Shown here piece after piece: positions 1,952-63,844 of a stretch of 64,000 nt of DNA (the first letter of the stretch is position 1; each line of letters starts with the position of its first letter). Position numbers and translations under genes: made by a program. The notes beneath the pieces were generated by a model. It saw only the letters and a list, made by a program, of their open reading frames with translations. It ran no database searches and was not told where the DNA came from. Source of the DNA: a virus; IMG/VR virus record IMGVR_UViG_3300025767_001290, positions 1 to 64,000 of that record; one strand, written 5' to 3'.

Positions 1952-1959
1952 TATAAATA
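1952..1959 (+). promoter_or_regulatory. T4-type late promoter (TATAAATA)
   Basis: This is an exact TATAAATA, the T4 late consensus, in a non-coding gap 29 bp upstream of the fibre-like gene start. The octamer's last seven bases and the following ten (1953-1969) match 17/17 with the sequence upstream of the fibre gene that starts at 39484 on the minus strand. Confidence 0.8.
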
Positions 1960-9880: not shown

Positions 9881-9896
9881 TATGGTTCCTTTATAA

Positions 9897-9924: not shown

Positions 9925-9977
9925 TATTTAGTGTTAGATAACGTGCCTCAATATCAATCCGAAAGTAATAGATTATC

Positions 9978-9985: not shown

Positions 9986-10004
9986 TATTAAATTGGAAAG
10001 AATT

Positions 10005-10031: not shown

Positions 10032-10034
10032 ATA
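10027..10034 (+). promoter_or_regulatory. Second TATAAATA octamer, very close to the start codon
   Basis: An exact late-promoter octamer ends 7 bp before the ATG at 10042. If active, it would start the mRNA at or next to the AUG, giving a leaderless transcript. A chance match in AT-rich DNA is possible. Confidence 0.35.
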
Positions 10035-10041
10035 TTACATA

Positions 10042-10911: not shown

Positions 10912-10920
10912 GGACAGATC

Positions 10921-11995: not shown

Positions 11996-12007
11996 GACCG
12001 AGAATAA

Positions 12008-14306: not shown

Positions 14307-14345
14307 AAACAATTTTTAATACCATAAACTCAATAAGCAAGGCTA

Positions 14346-14372
14346 TTGTTGATACAGTAGTATAAGTATAAT
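14346..14372 (+). promoter_or_regulatory. Weak sigma-70-like promoter
   Basis: TTGTTG (14346-14351), a 15-bp spacer and a perfect TATAAT (14367-14372) lie in the 88-bp gap before the PP-loop gene, followed by AGGAGA. The -10 is strong, but the spacing is short. Confidence 0.35.
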
Positions 14373-14394
14373 TAAACACTATTAGGAGAAAAAT

Positions 14395-15204: not shown

Positions 15205-15209
15205 ATATT

Positions 15210-16706: not shown

Positions 16707-16708
16707 TA

Positions 16709-16737
16709 TTGACAACTATATTAATTGGTAGTATAAT
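16709..16737 (+). promoter_or_regulatory. Perfect sigma-70-type promoter before the nitroreductase gene
   Basis: TTGACA (16709-16714), a 17-bp spacer and TATAAT (16732-16737) give a full consensus match. It fills the 37-bp gap between the stop at 16706 and the ATG at 16744. The TATAAT ends 6 bp before the ATG, so the mRNA would begin at or beside the start codon; there is no ribosome binding site. Confidence 0.8.
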
Positions 16738-16743
16738 ATTATT

Positions 16744-19782: not shown

Positions 19783-20587
19783 TAGAGAAAAGTTACAGTA
19801 CGTTAAAAATGTACTAAGTCTTACTAATAAAGATATAGATATTACCGAATTATATAATTTAGTAACTGCAATAAACAGAAATGACGAGTTGTACTTTCTA
19901 ACTACTATGTTTAAGTTATTGCAGCCTGAAACAGATGCATCTTTATTAAAAACTGTATTTGGATTAATTAAAGAAGATCCTAGTTTAGAGAAAACTTTAT
20001 TAGATTCATTTAGTCATAATCAAATTGCAGCAAAAACAGCACTGTTAAATGCTGTAGACGATTTAAAAATATTAGACAAAGATTCAACAGTTGTAATGTG
20101 GGCAGGATGGTACGGAAGTATATTGATACCTAAGCTAGCAAATAAAGTTAAAAAAATTGTTAACATTGATTTAGATAACCAAACTACAAAGGTATCAAAA
20201 AAATTATTTAATAATTACGAAAATGTAGATTATATTTGTGATGACATTTTTAAAACATATAGAGATGCATATTTAAATACAAATCTAATTATTAATACTA
20301 GCTGCGAACATATGCCGCCAATGAAAGATTGGAAATGGTTTGGGGCTGGAGCATTAAGTAATGATCAAGACACTAGCATATTTAGAACTCCTAAATTATC
20401 AGACAATTGTTACTTTGCATTCCAGTCGAATAATATGTTTGGCATAGAAGGGCATGTAAATTGTGTTAATAGTTTACAAGAGTTTAAAGACCAAATGCCC
20501 GAACGTGCAGAGATACTTTTTGAAGAGGAAGTAGAAGACACTCGCGGCACTAGGCATATGCTTGTTGGCAAATTTATGCCTCTTTAA
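19775..20587 (+). CDS. SAM-dependent methyltransferase-like protein
   Basis: The 270-aa protein has an all-helical N-terminal region (1-100), then a class I methyltransferase-type core. A WAGWYGS motif-I loop lies near 109-115, VNIDLDN (129-135) takes the place of the acidic ribose-binding position, and a LIINTSCEHMP strand (about 171-181) matches motif IV. The glycine loop is atypical, so methyl transfer is probable but not certain. It overlaps the carbamoyltransferase by 8 bp and ends convergently, overlapping the GT-A gene on the other strand by 14 bp. Confidence 0.65.
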   Translation: MINREKLQYVKNVLSLTNKDIDITELYNLVTAINRNDELYFLTTMFKLLQPETDASLLKTVFGLIKEDPSLEKTLLDSFSHNQIAAKTALLNAVDDLKILDKDSTVVMWAGWYGSILIPKLANKVKKIVNIDLDNQTTKVSKKLFNNYENVDYICDDIFKTYRDAYLNTNLIINTSCEHMPPMKDWKWFGAGALSNDQDTSIFRTPKLSDNCYFAFQSNNMFGIEGHVNCVNSLQEFKDQMPERAEILFEEEVEDTRGTRHMLVGKFMPL

Positions 20588-21242
20588 ATTGTTGTGCTAA
20601 CCAATCAAAATTATTTATAAGGCTAATATTGCTCCTATTAGAAATCCCAAACTCCCTGCCAGCATTAGCACCAGCAATAGCGAAATCACCATAGCGCCTC
20701 TCACCGCCTTTTGTACACCAAGTATTAAGTCTTTGTTCTGTTTCTTCATTGTTTTGTCTCGTAATTGTCCTACTGCTTAGTTTAGCACATTCTCTAAATG
20801 CACCTTTCCATGTTTCAAATGGACTTGTGTTAAATGCTGTAATATTTGCAACTTCATCTACAGCAATAAAATGTTCGCTTATGCTTGTAGTCATATCCGG
20901 TTTAGTTGTATCCATATCGACTGTCATCTGCCGAGGAAATAACTTTACTCCTCCGTAACCATATTCTAATCCATTAATAGGATTCTTTGCTCTCCATACA
21001 TGTACATGATCTAACTGGTGATTAGGAACAACATAATCAAAGTTAAAGTCGTCCATAATTATTGCATCAGCATCTACGATCCAAAACATCTTAGTAAAGC
21101 ATTTCTTTGCTGCTTTTATGTGTGCTTGATGTATTCCTTTAACTCCGTGTACACGTTTAGTCATAGAAAACCGTGCTTTGAGTGCAGCATAGTTAGCATC
21201 TGCACTAGGTTCCTGATAACTTATGAATACTATATCATACAT
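20574..21242 (-). CDS. GT-A glycosyltransferase (pair 1, short member)
   Basis: The 222-aa protein begins YDIVFISYQEPSADANYAAL and has a DAD metal-binding motif at 57-59 (WIVDADAI), followed by a NPINGLEYGYGGVKLFP acceptor-side segment. It is a paralogue of the 308-aa protein at 24356-25282, which shares RVHGVxG and the NGLxYGxGGxKxxP block. It probably transfers a sugar from a nucleotide donor using Mn/Mg. It is the last gene of the minus-strand block. Confidence 0.75.
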   Translation of the reverse strand: MYDIVFISYQEPSADANYAALKARFSMTKRVHGVKGIHQAHIKAAKKCFTKMFWIVDADAIIMDDFNFDYVVPNHQLDHVHVWRAKNPINGLEYGYGGVKLFPRQMTVDMDTTKPDMTTSISEHFIAVDEVANITAFNTSPFETWKGAFRECAKLSSRTITRQNNEETEQRLNTWCTKGGERRYGDFAIAGANAGREFGISNRSNISLINNFDWLAQQFKEA

Positions 21243-21248
21243 AGTTTA

Positions 21249-22487
21249 TTATAACACTTTTTTAGTTAATTGTCTAGTGTTTCCGTAATGGATTACTGTG
21301 CAATTTGGATTTACATATGAGCGCCAAGGGTCAACTACTATGCTACCGTTGGGAATATCGCAATACAATTTGTCTGCACTATCCTTGCCAGTGTACTTGT
21401 ATGTAGTACTTGCGCTGTGTGCTAGTAAAAATACACAAGTCTCTGTTGGATCATACTCGTCGCCTGTTAGTGGATCTACATACACAGGTTCAAAGCCTTG
21501 CTCTTCACAGTAATGACCAATTAGTAAACTGTAACTACCATCGCAATACTCTACGTTTGGCTTGTATGCTTTGCCATGAATAACAATCTGCATATTATGT
21601 TCGTTTGCATGTTGCACTAGTTCTAATGCAATGTTCTTTGCTTGTATTTCTCTGGCATTCATGATGCTGTCAAATAAATCGTATCCTAAGCCAAGTTCGT
21701 TTGCCATATAGCGTAGTGCAATGTTGTCACGTGGATGACACCCACCTCCATCACCCATGCCTGCTTTCATATACTGTGGACCCATAATACGCATCGTAGA
21801 CTTAGCTAGAGCGTCTGTAACAACGTCTACGTTAATGTTGCCCTGTTGCTGCGCTACATCCTGTATCATGTTTACAAGACCTATTTTAGCACTAATAAAC
21901 GTATTGTAGAATACTTTGATACACTCGCACTCGTCCCAAGTACCAATCTCATAGCGTGGATTATTTTCCATTATAGTTTTATAAAAGTCTACAAGTTGTT
22001 CTGCGTCGCCTGTTGCACTTCCATCTTCTGTGCCGATCATAACCATCTCTGGATTTACCATATCCCATGCTACACTGCCCATTGCAATTAAGTAAGGATT
22101 GTATACAAAGCGTGTGTTAGGAACAAGGTCAACAAACTGCTTGCGTGTTGTGCCGGGCAATACTGTACTAATAAGCACAAGCAATTGATCTTGTGTCATG
22201 TGCTTGTTTGCTTCTGCTAATACATCTTTTACAATATCGTAATTAAAGTCTTTTGGATTTAAATGTGCTGTTGGTGCTCTGCCATCGTAGTCTGGATCGT
22301 GTGGAGTAGGCACTGCAACAAATACAATGTCTCTGCCTTCTACTGCATCTTTAATTGTAGGCATGATTGTTACTTGGTGACTAGTACGCTTTGCAACATC
22401 ATAACATGTAACGTTGTGTCCTTTACTAGCAATTGCTTCTGCACATGGCATGCCTAGCTTGCCTGTACCTATAAATCCTATTTTCAT
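21249..22487 (-). CDS. UDP-sugar 6-dehydrogenase-type protein
   Basis: The 412-aa protein has the N-terminal NAD-binding GFIGTGKLGMP loop (residues 4-13) and VAVPTPHD at 57-64. A central helix (FYNTFISAKIGLVNMI, about 193-208) follows. The catalytic Cys250 lies in GMGDGGGCHPRDN. The C-terminal third is a second Rossmann-like domain. The family oxidises UDP-glucose, UDP-GlcNAc/ManNAc or GDP-mannose to uronic acids. The GGGCHPRD form leans toward the amino-sugar (ManNAc-type) branch, but I cannot fix the substrate. It overlaps the SGNH gene by 1 bp (TAATG). Confidence 0.88.
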   Translation of the reverse strand: MKIGFIGTGKLGMPCAEAIASKGHNVTCYDVAKRTSHQVTIMPTIKDAVEGRDIVFVAVPTPHDPDYDGRAPTAHLNPKDFNYDIVKDVLAEANKHMTQDQLLVLISTVLPGTTRKQFVDLVPNTRFVYNPYLIAMGSVAWDMVNPEMVMIGTEDGSATGDAEQLVDFYKTIMENNPRYEIGTWDECECIKVFYNTFISAKIGLVNMIQDVAQQQGNINVDVVTDALAKSTMRIMGPQYMKAGMGDGGGCHPRDNIALRYMANELGLGYDLFDSIMNAREIQAKNIALELVQHANEHNMQIVIHGKAYKPNVEYCDGSYSLLIGHYCEEQGFEPVYVDPLTGDEYDPTETCVFLLAHSASTTYKYTGKDSADKLYCDIPNGSIVVDPWRSYVNPNCTVIHYGNTRQLTKKVL

Positions 22488-23104
22488 TAGTTTCTTTCCA
22501 ATACAGTTAATATATAATCTGCATATGCTTGATGACTTTTAATCCCTGGATGCGAGCCATCTGCTGCGTGATCTGTTCTATAATCATTTATAGTGTTATC
22601 TAAAAATTCTACATTATTAGATTTAAAATTACTTGCAGTGTCGCCTGTATAATTAAAAGGTTTAGTATTAATTATTTGAGTAACGCATTGTGCAAGATAA
22701 TAATTTGTCCAAGATATAAATATTTTATTATTAAATTCTATTTCTTCGTTTGTACTAAATTGTTTATAAAAAATTTTAGATTTTTTATCTGGACACCAAG
22801 GTCCTATAATACTTGCAGTGTTATTATTTATAACACAACTTCTTTCAGCATGAGTCCAATTCAATAGTACAATATCACTGATTTCAAACTTAAATTTTTG
22901 TAATCTATAAACCATAGCTTTATTACTCGATCCAGGAACAGATAAATTTATATTTTCTCTATCTATTGCATTTGCTATTAGTGCAGGAAATGCTTGATGA
23001 CTTGCTGTTTTCCCAGGTTCATTGTTATTGCGTCCGATACAATCAGGTAATCCTTGTCCAAAAGGATACGAACATCCAAAAGTTATAAGTCTTTTTTTAA
23101 TCAT
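22487..23104 (-). CDS. SGNH/GDSL-type hydrolase
   Basis: The 205-aa protein has the nucleophile block I at residues 8-18 (TFGCSYPFGQG, Ser12) and a C-terminal D-x-x-H dyad, Asp182 and His185 (ADGSHPG). A central conserved-Asn type segment (IVLLNWTHAER) also fits. No signal peptide is visible, so it should act in the cytosol. Esterases or acyltransferases of this fold often acetylate or deacetylate sugars. It lies between the sugar dehydrogenase and the fucosyltransferase-like gene and overlaps both. Confidence 0.75.
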   Translation of the reverse strand: MIKKRLITFGCSYPFGQGLPDCIGRNNNEPGKTASHQAFPALIANAIDRENINLSVPGSSNKAMVYRLQKFKFEISDIVLLNWTHAERSCVINNNTASIIGPWCPDKKSKIFYKQFSTNEEIEFNNKIFISWTNYYLAQCVTQIINTKPFNYTGDTASNFKSNNVEFLDNTINDYRTDHAADGSHPGIKSHQAYADYILTVLERN

Positions 23105-24353
23105 GTAATAACTCTAGCAATTGGTGTTTAATTGAAAGATCATAAGTTTGACATCTATATTGTAAATGACATATATTATGTGTTAAAATTGGCAACATCT
23201 CAATGAGTATATTGTCTAATTCTTTAGAAGGTTTATTAAAAAAATCTTTAGCACTTTTAATACATGCGTACATTCTTTGTTCATTGTTAGTTATTGTGTC
23301 ATACGATTCGTCAATAAACTTATCAAAGGTAGCGTAACCTAAACTTTTTAAATTTTGCAATGCAAACGCTTCTCCTACAATAACAAATGGTTGCATAAAC
23401 ATTATAGGTTTAAAAATCTTTTCACTAAAAAAAGATCTGTCTATCGAGTAATCCTGATATGTTTCTGCTACTATGTGTAAATAGGAATTATAAAATTTAT
23501 CTACACGCTTGTCAATAACTGGATTTTCTGTTTCTGCATCTATTCCGTCTTTTATTACTAATGGTAACGACTTTTTTAAATTAATATTTTGGTATGTTTT
23601 GTATATTGTTGGTAATTGGGTTTTAAATATAGTTTCTTGATTTTCAAAATAATTATCACCCATTTGCCCATTTAGACCAAGGCTCATTAATCCTTGATGC
23701 CTTTTACTATATAGTAAGCTAACTGCTGCAATCCTAAAGTGATGAGGCCTGCGATTTAAATATAAAAATTTGTGTTCTCTTGAATCGCCTTCTAATATCT
23801 TATCAGTTCCTGCATATTGGAAACTATTTAAATCTTCGTACATAGTTTGACGTTCAAAAAAATTAAAATAAACTGATTTAATAGTAGTATTTTTTGATAA
23901 ATTTCCGTTTATAACAACAAAATCATCAGAAGATAATGATGAATACTTATCTATAATTGTATCTATTAGATCTTGCCAATAATGCCAGTTCCATCCTTCA
24001 TAAGGACACACAACAAGTATTTTACATTTTTTTTGTTGAATATCATTAAGAACAGATCCTGGGATTAAAATATGCTGGCCTATAACGCTACTAATACCGG
24101 ATATACTAACAATAATAGGAAAATAGTATTTTTCTTGGGTTATTCTATCTGTAAAAATTCTAAAAAAAGGTTTTCCGAACAGACCAAAATACCCTTCGTG
24201 ATCTTTCTGTGGGAAGAAAAATCTTTCTACATTGGTCCAGTCGTCGTATATGTTTGTATATTTATTTTGACCTTGGCCTGAAACAAATAAAGGAATTTTA
24301 TAATTAGTACTGCGTTTTAATAAACCAGATTTTCTTGCTGATTTTTTACTCAT
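23097..24353 (-). CDS. Fucosyltransferase-like glycosyltransferase
   Basis: The 418-aa protein has a lysine-rich N-terminus. A central EHKFLYLNRRPHHFRIAAVSLL segment (about 193-214) follows. The later FFSEKIFKPIMFMQPFVIVGE...LKSLGYATFDKF stretch (about 305-340) matches the donor-binding core of GT10-like fucosyltransferases (SEKIFxP...PFVIVGxxxxLxxLxxxGF.TF). The first half is not recognisable. It probably binds a nucleotide sugar such as GDP-fucose, but the exact donor is a guess. It overlaps the SGNH gene by 8 bp. Confidence 0.65.
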   Translation of the reverse strand: MSKKSARKSGLLKRSTNYKIPLFVSGQGQNKYTNIYDDWTNVERFFFPQKDHEGYFGLFGKPFFRIFTDRITQEKYYFPIIVSISGISSVIGQHILIPGSVLNDIQQKKCKILVVCPYEGWNWHYWQDLIDTIIDKYSSLSSDDFVVINGNLSKNTTIKSVYFNFFERQTMYEDLNSFQYAGTDKILEGDSREHKFLYLNRRPHHFRIAAVSLLYSKRHQGLMSLGLNGQMGDNYFENQETIFKTQLPTIYKTYQNINLKKSLPLVIKDGIDAETENPVIDKRVDKFYNSYLHIVAETYQDYSIDRSFFSEKIFKPIMFMQPFVIVGEAFALQNLKSLGYATFDKFIDESYDTITNNEQRMYACIKSAKDFFNKPSKELDNILIEMLPILTHNICHLQYRCQTYDLSIKHQLLELLHD

Positions 24354-24355
24354 GA

Positions 24356-25282
24356 TTATTCCTTATCAATAAATTTTAGATTGTTAGTCCTTGCCGGATG
24401 CTCATACACTGCTTTAAAGAACTTACTTTGTTGTGCATCTAATGGATTTACTGAAATAGGAATGTCTAACTCATCAATAAGGCTGTTACCTAGCCGTTGA
24501 ATTGATTCTAACAAGTTTCCATCATGTATGTGTACGCTAACTGTTTTATCCCAATACTCGTTTAAATATTTAAAGTCTCTTACTTGTACATAATCCCAGT
24601 CTGTACACATTGACATGTACAATCCTTCTCTAGCGCCATATATAGCCCATAGACCATTTTTAATATCTGCACCAATCATAGTCCAAATGTAAAGCCAATG
24701 TAAGCAGCGCCAGTGATTATTTTTAAGAGTGTCCGGAGTAAGACGCAAGCCTTGGTCAGTAGCAAGCTTTACTCCTTCTCTAAATCCCGCTCTCCATGCT
24801 TGTTGGGAGGTATGATTATTGTACACATCTGAGTAACAACTATTCATTTGAATATACTGCGCATCCCAGCAAAAATCTACTTGAGCATGCTTATTATTTG
24901 GATCAGCGTTTTCGTGTGTACGCATATTTAACACATACTTCTTAGGCCAACATTTAAGTCCACCGTTGCCGTACATTAATCCGTTTATTTCATTACGGCC
25001 CTTCCAACTAATCACGGTATTTTTTAAGTCGCCATGCTCGTTAAAATCTAGTGTTTGATTTAAAAAATCTTGTCTAACAATATTGTCGGCGTCTACTGTA
25101 ATAAATCTATCTGTTTCACTTAATTCTGCACAGGCTTTATGTGCTGCATCACTACCTTCTACTCCGTGTACACGCTTTGCCCAAGGTACTTTCTTACACA
25201 AATCTGCATAGTTTTGTTCTGCATTAGGTTCGTCGTACGACAGATATATAATATCATAGTCTGTAACTCTAAATTTATTCAT
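24356..25282 (-). CDS. GT-A glycosyltransferase (pair 1, long member)
   Basis: The 308-aa protein opens YDIIYLSYDEPNAEQNYADL, has DAD at 64-66 (ITVDADNIV), and a NGLMYGNGGLKCWP block. It is homologous to the 222-aa protein at 20574-21242 but carries an additional C-terminal region of about 90 residues (DWDYVQVRDFKYLNEYW...). Its stop is 2 bp before the start of the fucosyltransferase-like gene, and its start overlaps the end of the unknown 25275-25895 gene by 8 bp. Confidence 0.78.
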   Translation of the reverse strand: MNKFRVTDYDIIYLSYDEPNAEQNYADLCKKVPWAKRVHGVEGSDAAHKACAELSETDRFITVDADNIVRQDFLNQTLDFNEHGDLKNTVISWKGRNEINGLMYGNGGLKCWPKKYVLNMRTHENADPNNKHAQVDFCWDAQYIQMNSCYSDVYNNHTSQQAWRAGFREGVKLATDQGLRLTPDTLKNNHWRCLHWLYIWTMIGADIKNGLWAIYGAREGLYMSMCTDWDYVQVRDFKYLNEYWDKTVSVHIHDGNLLESIQRLGNSLIDELDIPISVNPLDAQQSKFFKAVYEHPARTNNLKFIDKE

Positions 25283-25895
25283 TTATAATCTCATAGCTGT
25301 AAGTATCAAAATATTTAAAAGTGTATATACTAACATTGTCCATATTTTTAGGAATATTAATCTGTTCACTAATGTCAACTTCTGGGTTAGATAATAAATC
25401 GTATAATTCAATTTTGAACATATCAATTAATATATTAGGATCATTCTTTTTAGTAATACTAAAACTAAATCGTATATTATCAACCACTGACTTCATTGAT
25501 CTAAAATAATCTTGATGCCGAGGAGAAAGGCAAACTGTCCAATTCTTAGTGCCGCATTTGATTATTAAATCAGCGTCACGTGAATACTTAGGCACATTAT
25601 GTAATTTATCAGTAATATTTACTATCTTATGAGGAGAATTTTCTTGGAGTTCTAATTCTCGTGTTTTAATATTAAACATTATTCTATAGCTAGATAAATC
25701 TTTTTTTCCTAATAAAATATCAGTTACTTTATCCGACGAGACTTCTAAACACTCATAACCTTCTTCAAGAAAGCTAATGTTAGAAATTCTCTGAATCTCT
25801 CCAGTTGCTTTGTGATAATATACAAACTTAGTATCGTTACTAGCTGAATCTATTGATAAAGTTTTAAAAAATGCTGGCAAAGTATCAGTTGTCAT
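25275..25895 (-). CDS. Unknown protein in the glycosyltransferase block
   Basis: I do not recognise this 206-aa protein. Residues 20-95 look beta-rich, with short charged turns (FVYYHKATGEIQRI, YRIMFNIKTRELELQ). Residues 103-150 contain DADLIIKCGTKNWTVCLSPRHQDY. There is no signal peptide, membrane span or catalytic motif. It overlaps the GT-A genes on both sides (11 bp upstream, 8 bp downstream), so it is translated with them and may be an accessory or scaffold protein. The similar 'Kxxxxxxx'-rich composition is shared with its neighbours. Confidence 0.65.
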   Translation of the reverse strand: MTTDTLPAFFKTLSIDSASNDTKFVYYHKATGEIQRISNISFLEEGYECLEVSSDKVTDILLGKKDLSSYRIMFNIKTRELELQENSPHKIVNITDKLHNVPKYSRDADLIIKCGTKNWTVCLSPRHQDYFRSMKSVVDNIRFSFSITKKNDPNILIDMFKIELYDLLSNPEVDISEQINIPKNMDNVSIYTFKYFDTYSYEIINE

Positions 25896-26739
25896 TATAT
25901 AATTCCTTATAATAAGAAAATAACATGTGTGGCTTTACAAAATCGTTTTCTGTATAATGCAATATTCCTGTTTGTTGGTAATTGCCTATTTTAAGTCCAG
26001 CATTATTATTAAAATATGTACCTACACAATCTTGCCATTTATCTTTGTTAGAATACCAATTTTGTATGTTAGGTTTCATATGAGTAAAGGATGGAAATTT
26101 TACAATCTTGTTTGAAATTTTATCTTCACAATTTAAAATAAGTGTAACAATTGCAGCACATACATCAATACTACACTGCGTAGGTTTATCATGTTTAATA
26201 AAAATTTCATAAAACTTTTGCCAGTTTTGTACTACTAATTCTAACCATGTATAAAATTCTAATGCAAAGTCTGATTTTTCAAAATAATGAAAGCCACTAT
26301 ATAAATTTGGCAAATTGTTATTTACAAAGGCTTTCCTATAATAATCTCCAGTAACTTCGTCGCCGCGATAAGTATGTACCTTGGTAGTAAAAAATACTTC
26401 GTAGTTAGATAAAAAAGTCCACCAGGTTGATATATCTTGGAGCACCAACATATCTGTGTCCATTACTATAGTCTGATCATACGGAGAACAGTGATAAAGT
26501 TTCCATCTATTTTCAATTTTCCATTCAGTGTCTATTGCTGAGTCGTCCCACGGAATACTGATAATCTCATCAAATAGATTTTTATAAATTGCAGAAATGT
26601 TATCATTAGTTACAATACTAATTTTACAATTAGTATTAGTAAATTTTAAACTTAATGCTAAAAGACAAGCCTGTTGAACATAGTCAGTAGTCTCGTTGTT
26701 TTGTGCAAGTACTACTATTCCCTTAGTTTTGTTCATCAT
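25885..26739 (-). CDS. GT-A glycosyltransferase (pair 2, member A)
   Basis: The 284-aa protein opens KGIVVLAQNNETTDYVQQA, and has DTD at 94-96 (QTIVMDTDML) as the metal/nucleotide-sugar motif. An LPNLYSGFHYF acceptor-side segment follows. It is a clear paralogue of the next gene upstream (26723-27571): both open KGxxxxAxNNxxxDYxxQA, share a YDxTxxxDTDxxxxxD core, and are nearly equal in length. The overlap between them is 17 bp. It is GT8-like in outline, but the family is not certain. Confidence 0.72.
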   Translation of the reverse strand: MMNKTKGIVVLAQNNETTDYVQQACLLALSLKFTNTNCKISIVTNDNISAIYKNLFDEIISIPWDDSAIDTEWKIENRWKLYHCSPYDQTIVMDTDMLVLQDISTWWTFLSNYEVFFTTKVHTYRGDEVTGDYYRKAFVNNNLPNLYSGFHYFEKSDFALEFYTWLELVVQNWQKFYEIFIKHDKPTQCSIDVCAAIVTLILNCEDKISNKIVKFPSFTHMKPNIQNWYSNKDKWQDCVGTYFNNNAGLKIGNYQQTGILHYTENDFVKPHMLFSYYKELYNDN

Positions 26740-27571
26740 TAATTATCCGTTCTAAACTAAACTTATTCATTACGTGTATACTCTGTCCTTGTGTTTTTAC
26801 AGCAGTATATTCTCCCACATAATCCTTTTTTTCGACTAAAAATATAAAGTTATCGTCTGCTAATTTCCACAATATATCTTTGTCTGTTGTATACATGTGC
26901 TTTCCTGGTAAAGGCGATACGTAGTCGCCTGTCATAAATCCATTTAATATATGAATTGCAATACTAAATGCAAAGTCATTCCTAAACAAGCTTGAAGATA
27001 ATTGATATACAGATACATAATGACTCCAATTATCTTGTATATGTTTTACTAAATTAAAAAATAATTCATTGTTAGATGTTTTTCTAAAAAATACAACAGT
27101 TGCCCAGTAGAAGTCAACACTATACTCACTTATGTGTGTAAACTCTCTACTATCTCGTATATTTGCAACATCTTGCGATTTTGAAAACATTTGTAAATCG
27201 CTTGCACTTTCAAAACATGACTTAAATAAGTCATTAGAAATAATGTAGTCAGTATCTAATAATAATGTTTCATCATATGGACTAAGATCGTATGCATTTA
27301 TTCTATAATTATTTTTAAAATTAAGTGTTTTAGATGCAAGAGTGCCGTCGTAATATTTTCTAGTATTGTTATCGTCTGTATTATAATCAATAGCTATAAT
27401 TTCATCAAACACTGTGTGCTCTAATGAGCCGTTTATATAGTCAACACTATCAGTAATAACACTTGTAGGTATATTAAGATGTTGTTTAATTCGTTTAGCT
27501 AAGAAAACTGCTTGCTTGGCATAATCAAGTTCGCCGTTGTTTCTTGCAATAAGCAATGCGCCTTTAGTCAA
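26723..27571 (-). CDS. GT-A glycosyltransferase (pair 2, member B)
   Basis: The 282-aa protein opens KGALLIARNNGELDYAKQA and has DTD at 106-108 (TLLLDTDYI), plus a VDFYWATVVFFRKT segment in the position of the acceptor loop. It is the tandem paralogue of the 25885-26739 protein; the two probably arose by duplication and then diverged in the acceptor half. It overlaps the 27564-27923 gene by 8 bp. Confidence 0.72.
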   Translation of the reverse strand: MTKGALLIARNNGELDYAKQAVFLAKRIKQHLNIPTSVITDSVDYINGSLEHTVFDEIIAIDYNTDDNNTRKYYDGTLASKTLNFKNNYRINAYDLSPYDETLLLDTDYIISNDLFKSCFESASDLQMFSKSQDVANIRDSREFTHISEYSVDFYWATVVFFRKTSNNELFFNLVKHIQDNWSHYVSVYQLSSSLFRNDFAFSIAIHILNGFMTGDYVSPLPGKHMYTTDKDILWKLADDNFIFLVEKKDYVGEYTAVKTQGQSIHVMNKFSLERIINDEQN

Positions 27572-27923
27572 TGTCTATTCCTACTAACGCTTCAACTGAA
27601 CGTTGTTTTTTTAAAATGTTATATTTTGTATGATACCTATTAGATGCAGAAAAATAACAATCCATCACATCTTCATAGAATTTAGCAAGGTCTTCAATTT
27701 TAATCGGAATGTTGTTATCGTCTGTTAGAACTACATCTTCAGTATTTTCAGCATTTACTAGTAAGCCAACAAATGTAATTAACTCTTTAGTAATAGTAAA
27801 TTGGCCACCGTCGAAGTAGTGTAATAAATTTTCTTCATATTCTTCGTTTAACAGACGTTTTTGATTGTTGAGGGTAACTATGTAATTTGAAAAATCAATT
27901 GCTTTTTCTAGACGTTCGTCCAT
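27564..27923 (-). CDS. Conserved T4-like phage protein, function unknown
   Basis: The 119-aa protein begins MDERLEKAIDFSNYIVTLNNQKRLL and contains a DGGQFTITKELITFV segment that I recognise from small conserved proteins of T4-like marine phages. It is likely mostly helical. It is the first gene of the minus-strand biosynthetic block, read from the sigma-70-type promoter at 27949-27977 and an AAGGAG ribosome binding site. A conserved phage gene at the head of the glycosyltransferase operon suggests the block was inserted behind it. Confidence 0.75.
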   Translation of the reverse strand: MDERLEKAIDFSNYIVTLNNQKRLLNEEYEENLLHYFDGGQFTITKELITFVGLLVNAENTEDVVLTDDNNIPIKIEDLAKFYEDVMDCYFSASNRYHTKYNILKKQRSVEALVGIDID

Positions 27924-27948
27924 AGAGGATCTCCTTGTATTATATAAT

Positions 27949-27977
27949 AGTATATAACACTTTTAGAGATTTGTCAA
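27949..27977 (-). promoter_or_regulatory. Strong sigma-70-type promoter for the minus-strand biosynthetic block
   Basis: Read on the minus strand, TTGACA (27977-27972), a 17-bp spacer and TATACT (27954-27949) match host sigma-70 consensus 11/12. The downstream AAGGAG and ATG at 27923 leave a normal leader of about 20 nt. It sits between the end of the 2015-aa virion gene and the block, and no terminator separates them. Confidence 0.8.
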
Positions 27978-27996
27978 ATTATATCTGGCTTACTTT

Positions 27997-30900
27997 TTAA
28001 TCAGCGATGCCACCTACAGTCCAGCTTGTTGAATCAGACTGTCCACCGCTGTAGATTGCGCCGAAATAAGTGCCTGCGGGCAATGCTGCACTAATTGAGT
28101 CAGAACCGGAAGAATTGAAAGTGCCGCCACCGCTGCCGCCGCCGCCCAGGGCCCATCCATAAGAAGCACCCGGAGTTCCAGTAAAATAAGCTGTACATAA
28201 TGATGTTGACCCGTTATACGGTCCTACAAATACACTTATTGTTACAGGGTAGCTTAGTGGTGGAGTATATCCGCATGTTGGGCTGTTTGCTGTAGTACGT
28301 GTAGTTGATCCGCCGCTTCCGTCGGCTATTTGCTCAACTAATGTAGTTCCACTACAGTTAGAACTAAGCACTGTTCCAGCTGCTGGCGGTGGGGGTGTGT
28401 ATCCACAAGATATACTATTTGTTTGAATAATTGCGTATGTGTCTGGACCGTAGCCGCCGGAGTAAATGCCCCATTGTGTTGTACCAACACAATATGTACT
28501 TAATAGTGTGCCAACAGCCGGTGGTACCTCAGGAGCATTATTAACTGTGACTGATGCAGAAGCTGTGCCGCCAGCAGTTGTTATAGTAGCTGACCATATA
28601 CCTACGACTCCTAATGTGCTTGTATAACTACCAGTAAGATCACTGAATGTAGTAGTTCCACCATCGGCAGCTGTAACAACTATACTTGCAGGGCTTACTC
28701 CGTTTGCAGTCCACGTCAGTGTATACTGGGTAACATTAATAATTCCAACTTGAGGACCAAAACTAATACTCGGTGCTAGCGGAGCTGGTGCTGTTACTGT
28801 AATCGGAGCAGTATCAGTAACAGTGCCACCTGCATTAGAAGCTGTTAATGTTGTATTAAAGTTTCCGGCGCTAAGATACGGTCCATTTGCCCGTGTGCCT
28901 GATGGTCCTAAACTGTAGGTTCCAGTATCACCAGTTACTACTATTGATGTTGCGCCTGTAACATCCCAATACAGTGTATTAGAATCACCTACTTCTATCG
29001 ACGACGGGCTCCAATAAAAAGAATTAATTACTGGCGGCGGTGTCGGCGCTACGTATCCGCATGTTGGGCTGTTTGGTGTTTCGACTCTATTCGATCCACC
29101 GCTGCCGTCAGCTATTTGCTGAACTAATGTAGTTCCACTACAGTTAGAAGTAAGCACTGTTCCAGCTGCTGGCGCTGCTGATACCGATGTCAAGTCAGGC
29201 GTGGCTGCTACTGACAGTTGTTCATTGGAATTTCCTCTATACAATACTAGCATACCTGCTGTATGTGTTCCAGTAGTAGTAGCAGTTGCACTAAGTGTGT
29301 GAGGACTTATTGATTGGGAAGATGCTATAAAAGTATTGCTAGGGTCTCGTATATAACTAACACTACTATATGTTCCGCCGGCACTATCCGGATTAACTGC
29401 TGCCTGAATAGTTTCACCAACTGTGTATGTAGCCGACAGGAACTGTATTATTGGATCAGGTGTTGGGGCTTGAGGGCTTACATTGATCGCTGCTTCAGCA
29501 TACCCTTGTCCTGCTGAATTAATCGCTGTTATATCAGCTGACCATTGGCCCACGACTCCTAGTGGAGCAGTTTCACTTCCAGTTAGCCCCGTTAGAGTAG
29601 CAATCTCGCCGAGGGGATTTACTACTACAATCGATGCACTAGTAGCACCAGCGCCTGCATTCCAACTCAAAGTAACACTAGTAGTGTTAAGAATTGCCGA
29701 ACTAGGGCTCCAAATAATCGTCGGTACTGGCACTTCAACCGGCGCAGCTATTCCTGCTAGTGTATAATTAAGAGAGTTATACCCTGCGGCATAAGACGCT
29801 ATATTGCCCAACGAAACAGAAGCATACGTAGACAAAGTATTGTCACTCCGTGTATAACTAAATGTTCCATTGCCGGCACCGTCTAACGTGCCGCTAGATG
29901 CGGCGCCGCCAGCTGCATTGTTTGTTGAAGCCCAGGCGTAAGAACTGTTTGGTAACGCTCCAGTGATTAACCCGCTGACTGGTTCATATGTATTTGGTTG
30001 AATTAAGGTAAGATTAGGCGTTAGTAGCGGCGGTGGCTCATTTTGAACTACTACTGAAAACGCACCGTTAGTGTCCGGAGAAGGAACAGCTATAACATAG
30101 TTAAAAGTGCCAGCTGTAGAATAAGCACTTGATACAGTATATCTTCCTTCGCTATTAAAACTAACACCAGATACAGGATGAGGTCCTGTAATATTAAAGC
30201 TGCCGCCCGGGCGGCCTCCCGAGACAGTTAACGTAGTAAGTTCATTTATGTAAGGACTTGGTGGAGATACTGATGCAGTCGGAGTATATACTTGTTGCAC
30301 AGTTATTGAAGCTGAAGCTGTTCCGCTACAGAAGTTTTCTGTAGCTGTGTATGTATAAGTTGCTGGAGAACCTGCAGTAAAGTTAAATGATGCAACTCCG
30401 CTGCCGTTAAAGCTTAATGCTGGAAAAGGACCCATTGCACCATTTTGTCCCCAGGAGAACGTGCCTCCAGGATAGCCACCACTGATTGTTACTGCTACAC
30501 TATCTCCTGGTAGCGCTGAGCTAGCCATTGATATTGATAATACTGGACATATTTTTACGGTTGCTGTAGCAGTACTCGGCGATCCAACGGGGAACGTGCC
30601 AACATATGTAAAATCACCTGGTAATGTGTGCAGTGAGCTTCGAGTATATGAGCCGCTGCTATTTAATGTATAAGTGCTGCCAACTTGATTATAATTAGGT
30701 ACTGATGCTGCGGTATATGTTACTGTTGTGTTTGGTGTGCCTGTGGAATTAAAGGTAAACAGAGAACCAACTGGAACTGAGCTTGGCGTAATTACAAAAG
30801 TGTTAGCTATTGGTTGATCTGTAAGTGTCCATGTTGCATAAGAAGGAACACCAGTTTCATCCGATAATTTAAAACTTTCAGTTCCTTCAATATTGCTATC

Positions 30901-33900
30901 AACTACTGATGTAATAGTTGCTGTAGCAGTACGGAATACATTATCCTGTGCTGTACTTAATCCACTAAATGTAATTCCGTTGCCACCAGTGGAATATTCA
31001 GACCCAACTGGATCACCTATACTTGGATTTCTATAGAATCTCAAAGATTGTGTACTAGCAGTAGCATTCTTATATCTTAAGGAGAATGTAATAGTATCAC
31101 CTTCAGTATACGAAGTTCCGTTAGGAAGGCTTACACTAAAAACAGGTTCAATAAGTGTTGTTGTAAGTTGCCCGCTTGCTATAGCAGTTTGCCCGTCTGG
31201 TGTGCTTGCAATAACTTGCCAATTCGCAGTGCCTTCATCTGTAAATGTAACATAGTCAGTATTTGCATTGACATAAAGAGCATCTGGTGTTAATCCGTTA
31301 TCATAAGTTACTGCAAGGCCATCGGGCAAAGCATTACCTGTGATAAGATAATCTACCTGTGTGGCATTTGAAGATTGGTAATATAATGTTGCAGGAGTTC
31401 CGACTACTGGACTTGGAGGACTAAATCCTGCACTTGTAATAACTGGCGCAGCCCAAGCTGTTGTTGTTCCTGTAAAATAATGTCTATCAAGTATAGGGGA
31501 TCCGCTTGTGCCAGATCCCTGGTACAAGTAAAGCTGTCCAAACACATCTGCAGCAGGTGTGTTTGGACCATTTGTAGCAGTTACAGATATTGTTATTGTT
31601 TCAGATTGGCTAGGTGTTATACTAAACGTATGCCTTGCTCCGCCGCCGGCAACAGCAACGGCACTTCCGTTTATAGTAACGTTCCATGTATTATACCAGC
31701 TTGCTATTAAGACAGTAAGCTCAACTGCTGTATTATCCGGCGCACTAGTTAACGACACGCTTGTAGTCCAAGTTGTAGTTTCTGTTGGGGCTATACTAAA
31801 TGTATGAGCATTGCCAAATCTCCCGCTGGAAAATTGCGCTTCAACTGGAGGGTTTGGACTTGTATCATCAACACTAACTATTCTAGTTTGAGACTGAGTA
31901 GTTGGACTGCTTGCCAAATATGTCCTAGTTCCAAATTGTTCCGTACCCTCTGTTGTTGAGTCAGCTCTTATAGATCGTGTAAATGAGTATGTGCCATCAC
32001 CTGTGTTAGGACTGTTAGTGATAGTAACCGGTGCTGTGCCGGTTGTACCGTTGATGAAATCATTGGCATTCATCTCATCGCCAACTTGTTGCCAAGATAC
32101 TGAGCCAGTGGTTGACTCCCAACCTGTTACTGTTCCGCTAAATGTAAATGTATTAGAAGTAGTTTCGTTGCCTATTACCTTATCAACATTAAGCGTAGTG
32201 TTGATATTTGGCGTTAGTGGCACAGGTACACCTGCACCTGTCCAATATACTTTATAAGATGGGCCGGCTCCAGTAGCTTCAAGGATTGTGAAATGAAATT
32301 GTCTATTTACAGAAGCAAAGTCTAAGATTGAGGTCGGTGTAACACTAATCGGAACAGTAATCGATTGTCCTGCTGCAAGATTATAATTTTTAGTAGCAGT
32401 TGTAGCACTTGATACATCGTCAACAGACACTTCCCATGCCGATGGCCTAGCGGTTTCTTGAACTGTTACTACTCCCGATCGAACACCAGATGGTGCTGTA
32501 ATTGTAATATTAGTAGTTGCTGTTGTGTTAATTACAACATCGCCAATGTCCCATGCAGTGTTTTGTATAGAATAAGATGATGGAGATATAGTAAATGTAA
32601 ACGGTGGAACCCAACCACACGTTGCACTATTTGCTTCAATTAGTTGATTATAAGTTCCGCCTGATCCATTTGCATAAGTCCCGTATAAATCATCGCCACT
32701 ACAATATTGATTTAATAATGTGCCAGCAGCAGGCGGCGTTAACGAAGTATCGTTAATATTTACACTAATAGTAGATGCTCCATTATTTAATGCTAGTGTA
32801 AGAGTCTCAGTTCCTTCAGTTAATAGATCATTAGCAAAAGTAATAGTTACTGTATTATTAGTTCCTACTACAAAAGATCCTTGCAGCGGAACATTTATGT
32901 CACTTGTAGTTACTCCAGTAATTGTATACGGTATAGTCGTTCCATTAGAAACATTTGTAGTTACTAATGTTATTGTTGCCGAACTTCCTTCACTTGCTAA
33001 TGTTGCCGACCTTGATAGACTATATGACGGAACTGGAGGTGTATTTGCACTTAGATTAACAATATTACTACCCGAAGGCAACTGTTCAGCTTCTATTACT
33101 ACAGTGTTATGTGATAATCCGTTAATAGTAACAGTGCCGTCTGGAACTAATAACGAAGCACTACTAGTCCAATCTCCATATAGCGGCTCATCTATAGAGT
33201 AGCCTCCTGGGTTTGGATCTGTAAATAATACTTTAAACTGGATTGTACGTGTACCGGTTTGTAATGCATATAATTCATATGCACTTTGTGAATATGTTGT
33301 GCCGGCATCTTTTCTATAACATAATTGATATGTACTCGTTAGGGAGTTATTACCAATGTTACTTGCAGATCCTACACTAGAATTACTGTAAGTATCATCT
33401 GCTGTGAAACTAACAACTCCCATAGCAGCCATAGAAGATTGCCAATCAGCTGTCTTTTGTTGAGCTCCTGTATATGCTACTTGAGCATTAAATCGTATTT
33501 CGCCGCCTGCGTTAAAGAAATGCCTGCGATCTTCTACAGTAGGGAATGTTACAGTAAATATTTGATTAAGAAAGCTAGTCCATGATCCGCTTACATTAGT
33601 ATAATATGTACTTGATATCGGAGTGTTAGCTGATGTTGTTAGAGTCGTTGTTGATGCTTGCGTTGTAATATCAATATCAAAGCGATCTAATTCTATAGTA
33701 GTCATTAATGACTCAAGAGCACTAATGTATGCTTCTTCTACTTTATCAGTGTTAGCTGCATTAGTTTCAAAATCACCAATTACAAAATCATCTATAGTAA
33801 CTGCTGCGGCACCAACTTGATGTGCTCTACATCGAACAATATCAATATACAAGTCTTCGTATTGTTGCGCTGAAATCTTATCCGAGTTTGGGATTGTGTT

Positions 33901-34044
33901 TGACCGTGTTCCAGCAACATCTAATGCTGCGTTAAGTGTTTGCCCGTATCCAAATGTCGGAGCTGCAGAACCTGACGTGCCTAGTACAGCTTCAAGTCTG
34001 TCTTGCAGATTATTAAATCGGGTAGCTAAAATAGTAGTGGGCAT
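27997..34044 (-). CDS. 2015-aa virion protein with Ig/Calx-beta modules and Cys-loop repeats
   Basis: The protein has an N-terminal domain (about 1-240) shared in outline with the next virion protein upstream: NNLQDRL...GYGQTL, EDLYIDIVRCRAHQVG, DRRHFFNAGGEIRF. It is followed by Calx-beta-like and Ig-like beta modules (for example SEGSSATITLVTTNV...EGTETLTL near 350-425). Four roughly 42-residue repeats with Cys-x(~26-30)-Cys lie near 437-480, 1625-1666, 1840-1885 and 1887-1928. The last 60 residues are Gly/Ser-rich. There is no signal peptide. Such N-terminal domains attach to T4-like virions; the repeats look like a long adhesive fibre. A late-type promoter and an unusual inverted repeat surround its start codon. 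Confidence 0.85.
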   Translation of the reverse strand: MPTTILATRFNNLQDRLEAVLGTSGSAAPTFGYGQTLNAALDVAGTRSNTIPNSDKISAQQYEDLYIDIVRCRAHQVGAAAVTIDDFVIGDFETNAANTDKVEEAYISALESLMTTIELDRFDIDITTQASTTTLTTSANTPISSTYYTNVSGSWTSFLNQIFTVTFPTVEDRRHFFNAGGEIRFNAQVAYTGAQQKTADWQSSMAAMGVVSFTADDTYSNSSVGSASNIGNNSLTSTYQLCYRKDAGTTYSQSAYELYALQTGTRTIQFKVLFTDPNPGGYSIDEPLYGDWTSSASLLVPDGTVTINGLSHNTVVIEAEQLPSGSNIVNLSANTPPVPSYSLSRSATLASEGSSATITLVTTNVSNGTTIPYTITGVTTSDINVPLQGSFVVGTNNTVTITFANDLLTEGTETLTLALNNGASTISVNINDTSLTPPAAGTLLNQYCSGDDLYGTYANGSGGTYNQLIEANSATCGWVPPFTFTISPSSYSIQNTAWDIGDVVINTTATTNITITAPSGVRSGVVTVQETARPSAWEVSVDDVSSATTATKNYNLAAGQSITVPISVTPTSILDFASVNRQFHFTILEATGAGPSYKVYWTGAGVPVPLTPNINTTLNVDKVIGNETTSNTFTFSGTVTGWESTTGSVSWQQVGDEMNANDFINGTTGTAPVTITNSPNTGDGTYSFTRSIRADSTTEGTEQFGTRTYLASSPTTQSQTRIVSVDDTSPNPPVEAQFSSGRFGNAHTFSIAPTETTTWTTSVSLTSAPDNTAVELTVLIASWYNTWNVTINGSAVAVAGGGARHTFSITPSQSETITISVTATNGPNTPAADVFGQLYLYQGSGTSGSPILDRHYFTGTTTAWAAPVITSAGFSPPSPVVGTPATLYYQSSNATQVDYLITGNALPDGLAVTYDNGLTPDALYVNANTDYVTFTDEGTANWQVIASTPDGQTAIASGQLTTTLIEPVFSVSLPNGTSYTEGDTITFSLRYKNATASTQSLRFYRNPSIGDPVGSEYSTGGNGITFSGLSTAQDNVFRTATATITSVVDSNIEGTESFKLSDETGVPSYATWTLTDQPIANTFVITPSSVPVGSLFTFNSTGTPNTTVTYTAASVPNYNQVGSTYTLNSSGSYTRSSLHTLPGDFTYVGTFPVGSPSTATATVKICPVLSISMASSALPGDSVAVTISGGYPGGTFSWGQNGAMGPFPALSFNGSGVASFNFTAGSPATYTYTATENFCSGTASASITVQQVYTPTASVSPPSPYINELTTLTVSGGRPGGSFNITGPHPVSGVSFNSEGRYTVSSAYSTAGTFNYVIAVPSPDTNGAFSVVVQNEPPPLLTPNLTLIQPNTYEPVSGLITGALPNSSYAWASTNNAAGGAASSGTLDGAGNGTFSYTRSDNTLSTYASVSLGNIASYAAGYNSLNYTLAGIAAPVEVPVPTIIWSPSSAILNTTSVTLSWNAGAGATSASIVVVNPLGEIATLTGLTGSETAPLGVVGQWSADITAINSAGQGYAEAAINVSPQAPTPDPIIQFLSATYTVGETIQAAVNPDSAGGTYSSVSYIRDPSNTFIASSQSISPHTLSATATTTGTHTAGMLVLYRGNSNEQLSVAATPDLTSVSAAPAAGTVLTSNCSGTTLVQQIADGSGGSNRVETPNSPTCGYVAPTPPPVINSFYWSPSSIEVGDSNTLYWDVTGATSIVVTGDTGTYSLGPSGTRANGPYLSAGNFNTTLTASNAGGTVTDTAPITVTAPAPLAPSISFGPQVGIINVTQYTLTWTANGVSPASIVVTAADGGTTTFSDLTGSYTSTLGVVGIWSATITTAGGTASASVTVNNAPEVPPAVGTLLSTYCVGTTQWGIYSGGYGPDTYAIIQTNSISCGYTPPPPAAGTVLSSNCSGTTLVEQIADGSGGSTTRTTANSPTCGYTPPLSYPVTISVFVGPYNGSTSLCTAYFTGTPGASYGWALGGGGSGGGTFNSSGSDSISAALPAGTYFGAIYSGGQSDSTSWTVGGIAD
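28268..28388 (-). repeat. Direct repeat copy A (Cys-loop module)
   Basis: This 121-bp copy pairs with 29054-29174 at an offset of 786 bp. The segment 28324-28388 differs from its partner at only three positions, which indicates a recent duplication or gene conversion of the Cys-loop module. Confidence 0.85.
29054..29174 (-). repeat. Direct repeat copy B (Cys-loop module)
   Basis: This is the partner of 28268-28388. The first 22 bp and the last 65 bp are nearly identical, with most changes in between, so the module has a variable centre and conserved edges. Confidence 0.85.
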
Positions 34045-34103
34045 GCAATCTCTCTAATTTAAATATACTGTGTATTTATTAAAAAAATACCCACTACTAT
34101 TTT
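34028..34103 (-). repeat. 14-bp perfect inverted repeat enclosing the start codon and late promoter of the 2015-aa gene
   Basis: The arms are 34028-34041 and 34090-34103, perfect over 14 bp with a 48-bp loop. The loop contains the ATG (34044-34042), the AGAGAG ribosome binding site and the AATAAATA octamer (34073-34080). The downstream arm begins right after the ATG; the upstream arm lies just past the stop of the 1280-aa gene. In read-through RNA the start region would lie in a hairpin loop/stem; RNA from the late promoter would lack one arm. Confidence 0.75.
34073..34080 (-). promoter_or_regulatory. T4-type late promoter (AATAAATA)
   Basis: On the minus strand this octamer lies 29 bp upstream of the ATG of the 2015-aa virion gene, in a 64-bp non-coding gap, with an AGAGAG ribosome binding site between. 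Confidence 0.7.
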
Positions 34104-34108
34104 TTATA

Positions 34109-37100
34109 TTATTGTCTGTATAGTACTAGAGAAAATGTAGGATATGTTCCTGGGTAACCCGCTGCAAGAATACCAAAATTAAATGTATATGTGTTTGCAT
34201 TTAAATTACTAGTATTGCCGGCTACTCCTACACGCCTAGTTGCACCCGGAGCAAGTACAAAGCTTGGAGCTGAAATACCTGTATTTGTTCCTGTTAGTCT
34301 ACTAATCTCTTGTACACTTATATTAAGGGTCTCATCAGTTGGATTAGTAACTACAAAACTAGCTGCTGCAATTTGTGTGCCTGGATTAATTTCAATTGAT
34401 TTACTTGTAGGGCTAACTGTTACAGGAGTATCTTGTGATACTGGTTCTGGATCAACTACTGTAATATTAAACGTGTCTGTAGTCGATGTAGGATCGGAAT
34501 AGGTTACAACATAAGTGTAAGATCCTGCGCTATTAATTACAGTAGTTCCTGAAAAATCACCGCTGTTGTCAAAAGTTCCTGTAGCTTCTGATATTCCGTT
34601 ATTAGCTGTCCATGTTGTTCCTGGTGCTCCACCGTTAATAGCATAAGCAAACGTTTCGCCTCTTGTTACTGATGTAGGTAGACTTATTGATGGATTATAT
34701 GTCGGTACTGGTGCTGCTGGGGTTAAAGATGTGTCTTGTATAGCAGCATAAATTGCCGTTCGGACTACTGGGCCTGCGACACTTCCAGTTCTTAATTCTG
34801 TTCCAAAAAATTCTGTACCTGATTCAGTTGTAGCGTCGGCTACTGCTGTCCTAGTAAATGATCCTGAATTATTACTAATTGTAACTGTTCCAGTGAGTCC
34901 GTTAACATCATTTGCAGAAATAGGTGCGGGTGAAAATGTTTGTTTATTAACCCAGTATAGTACTGTTCCGTTTGGAACATTAGTAGTTGTTACTGTGTAT
35001 ACAAATGCCGAATATGTTGTTTCATTACCTACTGTTGGATATCCAGCTCGACCGCTATCTACAGTCATGCTGTATGTCGGAGTTTGAACTACTTCTGCTG
35101 TCCAATTAAGTTGTACAACTTTTGTGCCTGCGGTTGTACTTATTGTTAGTGTTGATGTTCCTGAACTTCCAAATCTATAAAATGTAACGTCTATATATTT
35201 ACTCGAGCTCGGAGTAACTGAGAAGTTAGCAACACCGCTTGGTACCCCTAAGGCTCCTGTATAATCAATACTTGTAGCAGATGCACTACTTTGACTAACT
35301 GATATACCTGTTACTGTTACTGCTGCGTTTGATGTAAATGTAATACGCTGCGGGCTTGGTCTTACTCCAGAAGGTGATGTAAATTGTAGGTTGCTAGAAG
35401 AAGTAGATATTGCAGGAACTATTGTAGGTGTCGGTGCAGGTACTGCATCCCATGTTAACTTAATTGCGCCGCTAGCACCTGGTGCTGCTCCGCCTGCGCT
35501 GCCTCCCGATGCTCCGCCTCCGCCTCCGTAGTTGCCGCCTGTGCCGCCTGTGGTGGTACCAGTGGCTCCATTAGCTCCTAACGATCCGCCTGCGCCGCCT
35601 GTGCCATAAGCACCATTAGCTGTTCCAAAAGTTCCGCTTCCGCTATTAATTCCGCCTGCACCTACGCCGCCGCCACCGCCTGCGCCGTAACTAGGACTAA
35701 CGCTGCCGCCTCCGCCGCCGCCGCCGCCTGCACCGCCTGTGCCTGCTGTTCCGTTAGTTGCTGCTATTCCAGATATTGATCGACCGCCTGTGCCGCCTGT
35801 GCCGCCATTGCCTGCATAACCGCCGGCACCTCCGCCACCACCGCCGCCATAGGTCCAATAGCCTGCTCCGCCAGCTCCGCCATTGCCGCCATTTGTTCCA
35901 ACAAAGCCGCCACCTGATGCACCTGGTGATAGTTGAGTATTATTAGAGACATACGAGCCTTGACTGCCGCCTCTGCCTGACACAGTGTTTAATGTTTTAA
36001 AATATGTATTTCCGCCTGCTGAATTACCTGCGCCTACTCCAACTGCTACATCATATGTTTGTCCAGGAATTACTGAGATCGTACTAGATCCGTAGCCGCC
36101 GCCTCCGCCGCCGCCTCCGCCATTAGTATAACCTGCGCCACCTCCGCCGACTGAATATACAGTTACACTATCAATGTGAGACGGAGCAGTCCATTTGTAT
36201 ATCCCTGCTTGAGTAGCAGTTACTGACGTGCCGCTGTTGGATAAGAAAGTTGCTGATGGCGGTGTTAGTGAAGTATCTGATATATACGTTGCTGCACCAT
36301 TGCCTGCTGTTAGTACAACTGTACCGTTAGTTGAGCCTGTTCTTAGTTGTATGTCAAATACTTCTGAACCTTCAGTTGTTACATCTGCTCTAGTAGTACG
36401 AGTAAATGTACCAGAACCGCTAGTCATAGTAACTGTCCCGCTGAGCGTACCATCAGTAAAATCTCCAGCAGTTATGCCAGAGCCCGTAGTTGTCCAATAT
36501 AATGTACCATTAGGTACATTAGTAGTAGATACAGTATATGTCGAAGAGCTTCCTTCAGATATTGTAGACGTTGACGATGTTATTGAATATGTAGGCGTAG
36601 GCGCAGGTGTAACACCTACAGAATTATCTACTATTGTAACAACTCCGGTCGAGTCAACAAAACTTGACAGTGACGCATCTGTGTATAACCTTAATCTAAA
36701 ACTTTCAGTACCTTCAGTAAAGTTATCAGCTAAAAGTGTTCTATTAATAGTTCGTTCAGCTTGTGTATATGCTGCGGTAATTGTAATACTTCCTGATAGT
36801 GTGTTATCATCAAAATCAGCCGCTGTTACATTGCCGCTAACAGTTTCGGTATCCCAATACAATGTAATCGGATACGGTACGTTTACTGCATTTACAACAT
36901 AATCTACACTTGCATATTGCTGTCCGTTTAGGTTTTCAATTTCGTATTGATTCCTTGCTAAGTCAACTCCAATAGAATATTCTGGGCTCTTATTAATCTC
37001 TGCAGGAGAGTCAAATCCTGATACTGATGTTGTGATGGAAAATGTAGGATCTTCAACAGATACATAGTTTCCTTTAGCAATGTATAACTGCACATTACTT

Positions 37101-37951: not shown

Positions 37952-37960
37952 TTGGGTTCC

Positions 37961-39484: not shown

Positions 39485-39513
39485 TGCTTGTAAACCCCTA
39501 GTGCTATTATTAG

Positions 39514-39521
39514 TATTTATT
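39514..39521 (-). promoter_or_regulatory. T4-type late promoter (AATAAATA)
   Basis: The octamer lies 29 bp upstream of the ATG at 39484 on the minus strand. The 17 bases 39520-39504 match 1953-1969 upstream of the other fibre-like gene exactly. Confidence 0.75.
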
Positions 39522-39524
39522 CAA

Positions 39525-44275: not shown

Positions 44276-44283
44276 TATTTATT
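44276..44283 (-). promoter_or_regulatory. T4-type late promoter (AATAAATA)
   Basis: On the minus strand the octamer lies 18 bp upstream of the ATG at 44257 and overlaps the stop region of the giant virion gene. Confidence 0.65.
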
Positions 44284-63836: not shown

Positions 63837-63844
63837 TATTTATC
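63837..63844 (-). promoter_or_regulatory. T4-type late promoter (GATAAATA)
   Basis: On the minus strand a GATAAATA octamer lies 26 bp before the gp6 ATG at 63810, with AAGGAA between. It fits the NATAAATA consensus. The 58-bp gap to the next upstream stop holds nothing else that I can see. Confidence 0.7.

Follow-up and report, generated by a model that had tools for sequence, protein, structure and literature searches.

A conserved host-type promoter ahead of a glycosyltransferase operon in a putative T4-type jumbo myovirus

Known transcription programmes and the layout of the window

In T4 and the marine cyanomyoviruses early genes are read from sigma70 promoters and late genes from gp55-dependent TATAAATA promoters, and descriptions of marine T4-like phages include NATAAATA as a late motif and sigma70 motifs as early ones (PMC2984593). 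In the jumbo phage CBB, ATAAATA late motifs were predicted ahead of structural genes, and the presumed early region was predicted to hold RpoD-like promoters; ATAAATA late motifs have been described for GAP32 as well as for CBB (PMC5259590). Large cyanophages such as P-SSM2 and S-SSM7 carry lipopolysaccharide (LPS) gene clusters of unknown function (PMC3037559), and a search of the literature on the timing of cyanophage LPS genes and on phage virion glycosylation found nothing direct.

The window analysed here is a stretch of 64 kb out of a 73,284-base IMG/VR fragment. The gene at 60328-63810 encodes a baseplate wedge protein like those of CBB/GAP32/RaK2-like phages and of Agrobacterium and Salicola jumbo myoviruses, with 36% identity to its homologue in the CBB/GAP32-type phages. 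On balance the window appears to be part of a T4-type jumbo myovirus in which gene expression would be timed as in T4. The likeness to the T4-type programme lies in host-type promoters on non-virion genes, in NATAAATA motifs before virion genes and in a gp55-family sigma factor encoded by relatives.

On the minus strand the virion genes run from 63810 to 27997 and are followed by a biosynthetic block (27923-20574), which a plus-strand biosynthetic array meets at 20587 (Table 1). Between the wedge and fibre genes lies a gene for a 5,349-aa protein (44279-60328), and a relative of 357,559 bases (the 357-kb relative) encodes a 5,131-aa protein in the same place. The region 3120-19782 combines in a single phage array many radical-SAM/SPASM proteins, a DegT aminotransferase, oxygenases of TauD-family and Asp-hydroxylase-like type, a sulfotransferase, a carbamoyltransferase and a nitroreductase. 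In a second large relative, of 261,806 bases (the 262-kb relative), the counterpart of the plus-strand biosynthetic array (10021-20587) is found at 224426-234697, directly after w1 and in the same direction, and part of the biosynthetic module appears inverted in the window by comparison.

Table 1. Genes and candidate promoter elements in the 64-kb window
Feature	Position	Strand	Remarks
w10, fibre-like gene	27997..34044	-	ends 19 nt ahead of the -35 box of the block, with no terminator-like structure between
ATAAATA	34073..34079	-	before w10; kept in 22/29 relatives
ATAAATA	39514..39520	-	before w12 (37961-39484, fibre family); kept in 26/29 relatives
ATAAATA	44276..44282	-	before w15 (43655-44257); kept in 11/14 relatives
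ATAAATA	63837..63843	-	before 60328-63810 (baseplate wedge); kept in the 357-kb and 262-kb relatives
ATAAATA	1953..1959	+	before 1989-3020 (Mtd_N-domain, virion-like)
Candidate sigma70-type promoter of the block	27949..27977	-	TTGACA-N17-TATACT, 11/12; sequence match and conservation in relatives
Second candidate sigma70-type promoter	21248..21276	-	TAGACA-17-TATAAT, 11/12, TG before the -10 box; before w1; at least 11/12 in 4/5 relatives
Candidate sigma70-type promoter	16709..16737	+	12/12; before the biosynthetic gene 16744 (nitroreductase family)
w9	27564..27923	-	119 aa; first gene of the operon; no assigned function
w8	26723..27571	-	282 aa; predicted GT-A/GT8-type glycosyltransferase; overlaps w9; DxD D106/D108 invariant
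w7	25885..26739	-	284 aa; GT8-like glycosyltransferase; DxD D94/D96 invariant
w6	25275..25895	-	206 aa; core-operon protein; no assigned function; size differs among relatives
w5	24356..25282	-	308 aa; probable glycosyltransferase; DxD D64/D66 invariant; conserved core ends here
w4	23097..24353	-	418 aa; in the variable section of the module
w3	22487..23104	-	205 aa; in the variable section of the module
w2	21249..22487	-	UDP-glucose/GDP-mannose dehydrogenase (Pfam PF03721, PF00984)
w1	20574..21242	-	222 aa; last gene of the block; N-terminus resembles w5 in style

Two promoter classes in the lineage

The initial annotation had placed late-type motifs before the virion genes that start at 34044, 39484, 44257 and 63810. 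All four sites exist and are conserved in relatives, where for w12, w10 and w15 about one or fewer would be expected by chance. The ATAAATA heptamer is depleted across the window (19 occurrences against 47 expected). Seven of the 19 fall in the 15-45 nt ahead of a gene start, where 0.40 would be expected, a number reached in none of 20,000 placements. TATAAATA-like motifs thus occupy the place of T4-type late promoters, 15-45 nt ahead of virion genes, at a frequency above chance, and are read here as putative late promoters. A late motif is also kept at gene G1_201, which resembles the 1989-3020 product at its N-terminus, and at the orthologue of G1_201. On the plus strand the heptamer is found in addition ahead of the biosynthetic genes 10021 and 10921. 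The second of these sites is probably a chance occurrence; it lies inside coding sequence and is not conserved, being kept in near-identical relatives and in one 74% relative and lost in all others.

The distinction extends to whole genomes. In the 357-kb relative ATAAATA precedes 42 genes and a strong sigma70 site 51, and no gene carries both motifs in either this or the 262-kb relative. Among 157 reciprocal-best orthologue pairs between these two genomes, the late motif was present in both members of 18 (3.9 expected) and the sigma70 site in both members of 12 (2.1 expected), with no switches from one to the other (5.8 expected). The predicted promoters fall into two conserved classes that hardly overlap. 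Wherever a gene with a conserved late motif can be named, it belongs to the head, tail or baseplate, and PHROGs names in the late class cover sheath, tubes, fibres, wedge, hub, connector and head proteins; the exceptions, found in the 357-kb relative only, are two metabolic genes, for the large subunit of RNR and a 2OG oxygenase. Names in the sigma70 class include helicase, primase, clamp loader, exonuclease, dNMP kinase, QueE, GTP cyclohydrolase, rIIA and gp55. A gp55-family sigma gene is present in 8/10 related records, the window itself being from a 73-kb fragment. In the four records (of six) with a placeable ATG the gp55 promoter is a 12/12 match with a 17-nt spacer at -50 to -54.

In four relatives the fibre gene is itself preceded by a host-type promoter, and in three of them (L009, L072 and L076) the sigma70 -10 box upstream of the w10-like gene overlaps ATAAATA (e.g. 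TATAATAAATA). Such composite sites would permit one site to be used both early and late. Unlike at this neighbouring fibre gene, the TATAAT/ATAAATA composite was never seen before w9 in the relatives.

The candidate promoter of the biosynthetic block

An 11/12 sigma70 match had been proposed at the start of the block, and it is present there, with TTGACA at 27977-27972 and TATACT at 27954-27949, some 25-26 nt ahead of the ATG of w9. Eight sites in the window match at 11/12 or better, of which three stand 5-90 nt ahead of a gene start in the same orientation (27923, 21242 and 16744) against 0.35 under A/T-matched random placement (P = 0.004). Chance matching in A/T-rich DNA has nevertheless to be considered. 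Weaker promoter-like matches in 20001-40000 show no excess over shuffled sequence (77 versus 74.8), and a 12/12 site at 23515-23487 was rejected as a promoter, lying inside w4. A single match on its own therefore carries little weight and conservation was tested. At least 11/12 was found upstream of w9 in 23 of 37 non-redundant IMG/VR relatives (0.10 expected) and at least 10/12 in 29 (1.75 expected), the 37 loci coming from a simple identity and k-mer redundancy filter and not being fully independent. This recurrence at one place refutes chance, which we regard as having next to no probability. ATAAATA was found upstream of w9 in 0/37 of the same loci. By our own rule a match of at least 9/12 is missing at 3/37 loci, and the two large relatives have a weak match of 8/12 before their own w9. 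Upstream of w8-w5 neither motif occurs above chance.

The site before w9 thus has TTGACA and a TATAAT-like box at 17 +/- 1 nt, conserved before orthologues, and would act as a sigma70 promoter given the sigma specificity assumed for the host polymerase. For the plus-strand candidate before 16744, the 262-kb relative has a 12/12 site ahead of the 17447 orthologue. In five relatives (L008, L016, L018, L049 and L063) a -10-like or sigma70 site is found at about -100 upstream of w9, with a second TATATAAT-like box near -30 that has no -35 box; the leader is thus longer.

The sub-type of this promoter bears on its timing. In the 357-kb relative, short genes are densely packed at 11.7-23.7 kb; their promoters have the consensus GG-TTGACA-N16-TATAMT with a aagaacatagggca-like sequence in common downstream, and we infer that this array is immediate-early-like. 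At the block the spacer is 17 nt in 29/34 loci and 16 nt in 3/34, and GG precedes the -35 box in 4/34, so that an immediate-early-like sub-type was rejected. With its 17-nt spacer and its place at about -52, the block promoter resembles that of gp55 and not the 16-nt array promoters. In this the lineage differs from the T4-type programme, since it seems to have two sigma70 sub-types, the 16-nt array and the 17-nt class.

A conserved host-type promoter, of a class shared with gp55 and replication genes, makes expression before the late genes likely, and the block very probably belongs to a pre-late promoter class. The earlier proposal of early expression can be kept to this extent, but the block promoter falls outside the immediate-early-like type. 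TTGACA/TATAAT promoters would be the first to be read, by host RNA polymerase carrying the housekeeping sigma, after which a gp55-type phage sigma would read the ATAAATA promoters of the virion genes, and the block, starting from a promoter of the gp55/replication-gene class, would be transcribed ahead of them. A terminator-like structure occurs in the 200 nt before w9 at 1/37 loci and at none of the other 36, so late transcripts could run on from the fibre gene into the block, and such read-through probably prolongs its expression.

It may be asked whether the promoter serves mainly w9, as a separate early factor, while the genes behind it are passengers or owe most of their translation to late read-through. 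In most loci the promoter does go with w9, which is strongly conserved (34 invariant positions), and w1 has a host-type promoter of its own. Against this, w9, w8, w7, w6 and w5 overlap in the window and keep their order in nearly all complete loci, as expected for a translationally coupled operon, and a separate role for w9 seems to us unlikely.

The operon and its probable acceptor

The block (20574-27923) forms one overlapping operon that encodes the 119-aa w9 protein, three predicted GT-A-type glycosyltransferases, accessory proteins and a UDP-sugar dehydrogenase. There are 573 relatives of w9 among IMG/VR contigs and no homologue in 50,697 cultured-phage records. Its structure model is confident but matches no similar fold in the PDB, and the protein has no family match. 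The model of w8 (pLDDT 90) has a GT-A fold whose nearest structures are glycogenin, LARGE1 and LgtC (best Foldseek match glycogenin, E=1.2e-7), while its sequence matches no curated family in Pfam, PHROGs or the PDB. With this fold and its DxD motif, both shared with GT8 enzymes such as glycogenin, LgtC and LARGE1, w8 is predicted to be a GT8-type glycosyltransferase. It differs from these in an identity of 13-16% and a TM-score of about 0.45. The w7 profile matches glycogenin (E=2.6e-5). For w5, which has no family match and no meaningful PDB match, the evidence is the invariant DxD only.

The order fibre genes, w9, w8, w7, w6, w5 is kept almost throughout the 80 retained loci, the core lies directly behind fibre genes in all loci examined, and downstream of it the relatives carry a variable tail with radical-SAM and other genes. 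The window differs from CBB/GAP32-type jumbo phages in that its glycosyltransferase operon core has no match in the 50,697 cultured-phage records; no cultured relative of the core with known timing was found. Cassettes of the Kyanoviridae (Synechococcus phage Bellamy, Pelagibacter phage HTVC008M) likewise combine a UDP-glucose dehydrogenase, a NolO-like carbamoyltransferase and glycosyltransferases in one array, but homologues of w9, w8, w7 and w5 are absent from them, as from the LPS clusters of P-SSM2 and S-SSM7.

From the timing of the block the initial annotation had preferred a role in superinfection exclusion or host remodelling to decoration of the fibres. This preference is not supported. 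The promoter is like those of gp55 and the replication genes, no terminator separates the block from the fibre genes in nearly all loci, and timing of this kind does not favour host remodelling because enzymes that make a virion glycan are also needed before assembly. That early expression alters the host surface, by superinfection exclusion or receptor masking, is rather doubtful in our reading. A pre-late host-type promoter would suit it, glycosyltransferases with a UDP-glucose dehydrogenase are typical of surface-polysaccharide synthesis, LgtC, which w8 also resembles in fold, is a lipopolysaccharide galactosyltransferase, and comparable sugar cassettes exist in cultured marine T4-like phages. 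The promoter is however not immediate-early-like and the block is always behind fibre genes. Transmembrane-like segments are seen in one borderline protein of the block (w4), and in the same module of the relatives in 0/27 proteins (357-kb) and 1/21 (262-kb), against 51/440 genome-wide. The block has no recognisable flippase, polymerase or lipid-carrier transferase and in this respect does not resemble an O-antigen-type surface-polysaccharide cluster. The near absence of membrane proteins from the operon would, if anything, point to an acceptor in the cytoplasm, for instance a virion protein, and such an acceptor is no less likely than one on the host surface.

The glycosyltransferases, as soluble enzymes, might also act on phage DNA or some small molecule ahead of replication or in its course, like the glucosyltransferases of T4, and in the 357-kb relative the promoter class is common to replication genes and to the deazaguanine-pathway enzymes QueE and GTP cyclohydrolase. 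We think this improbable, more so than a separate role for w9, given the likeness of w8 and w7 to GT8 enzymes that act on proteins or lipids and a synteny that is with fibres, not replication genes. Most likely the enzymes would assemble a sugar on an acceptor in the cytoplasm, in time for the building of virions, the fibres encoded next door being the most plausible target; that the acceptor is a virion protein is a serious candidate reading, at slightly less than an even chance. More tentatively, the uncultured jumbo-phage lineage may possess an undescribed pre-late glycosylation operon behind its fibre genes that puts a phage-specific, cassette-variable sugar on the fibres, with w9 as a dedicated glycosyltransferase partner.

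Promoter class by itself cannot tell host remodelling from virion decoration. The regulatory logic was already known, and what is new is the operon family and its promoter class. A large, unnamed family of glycosyltransferase operons can probably be placed in the pre-late class, and for uncultured jumbo phages of the T4 type conservation may indicate when genes are expressed.
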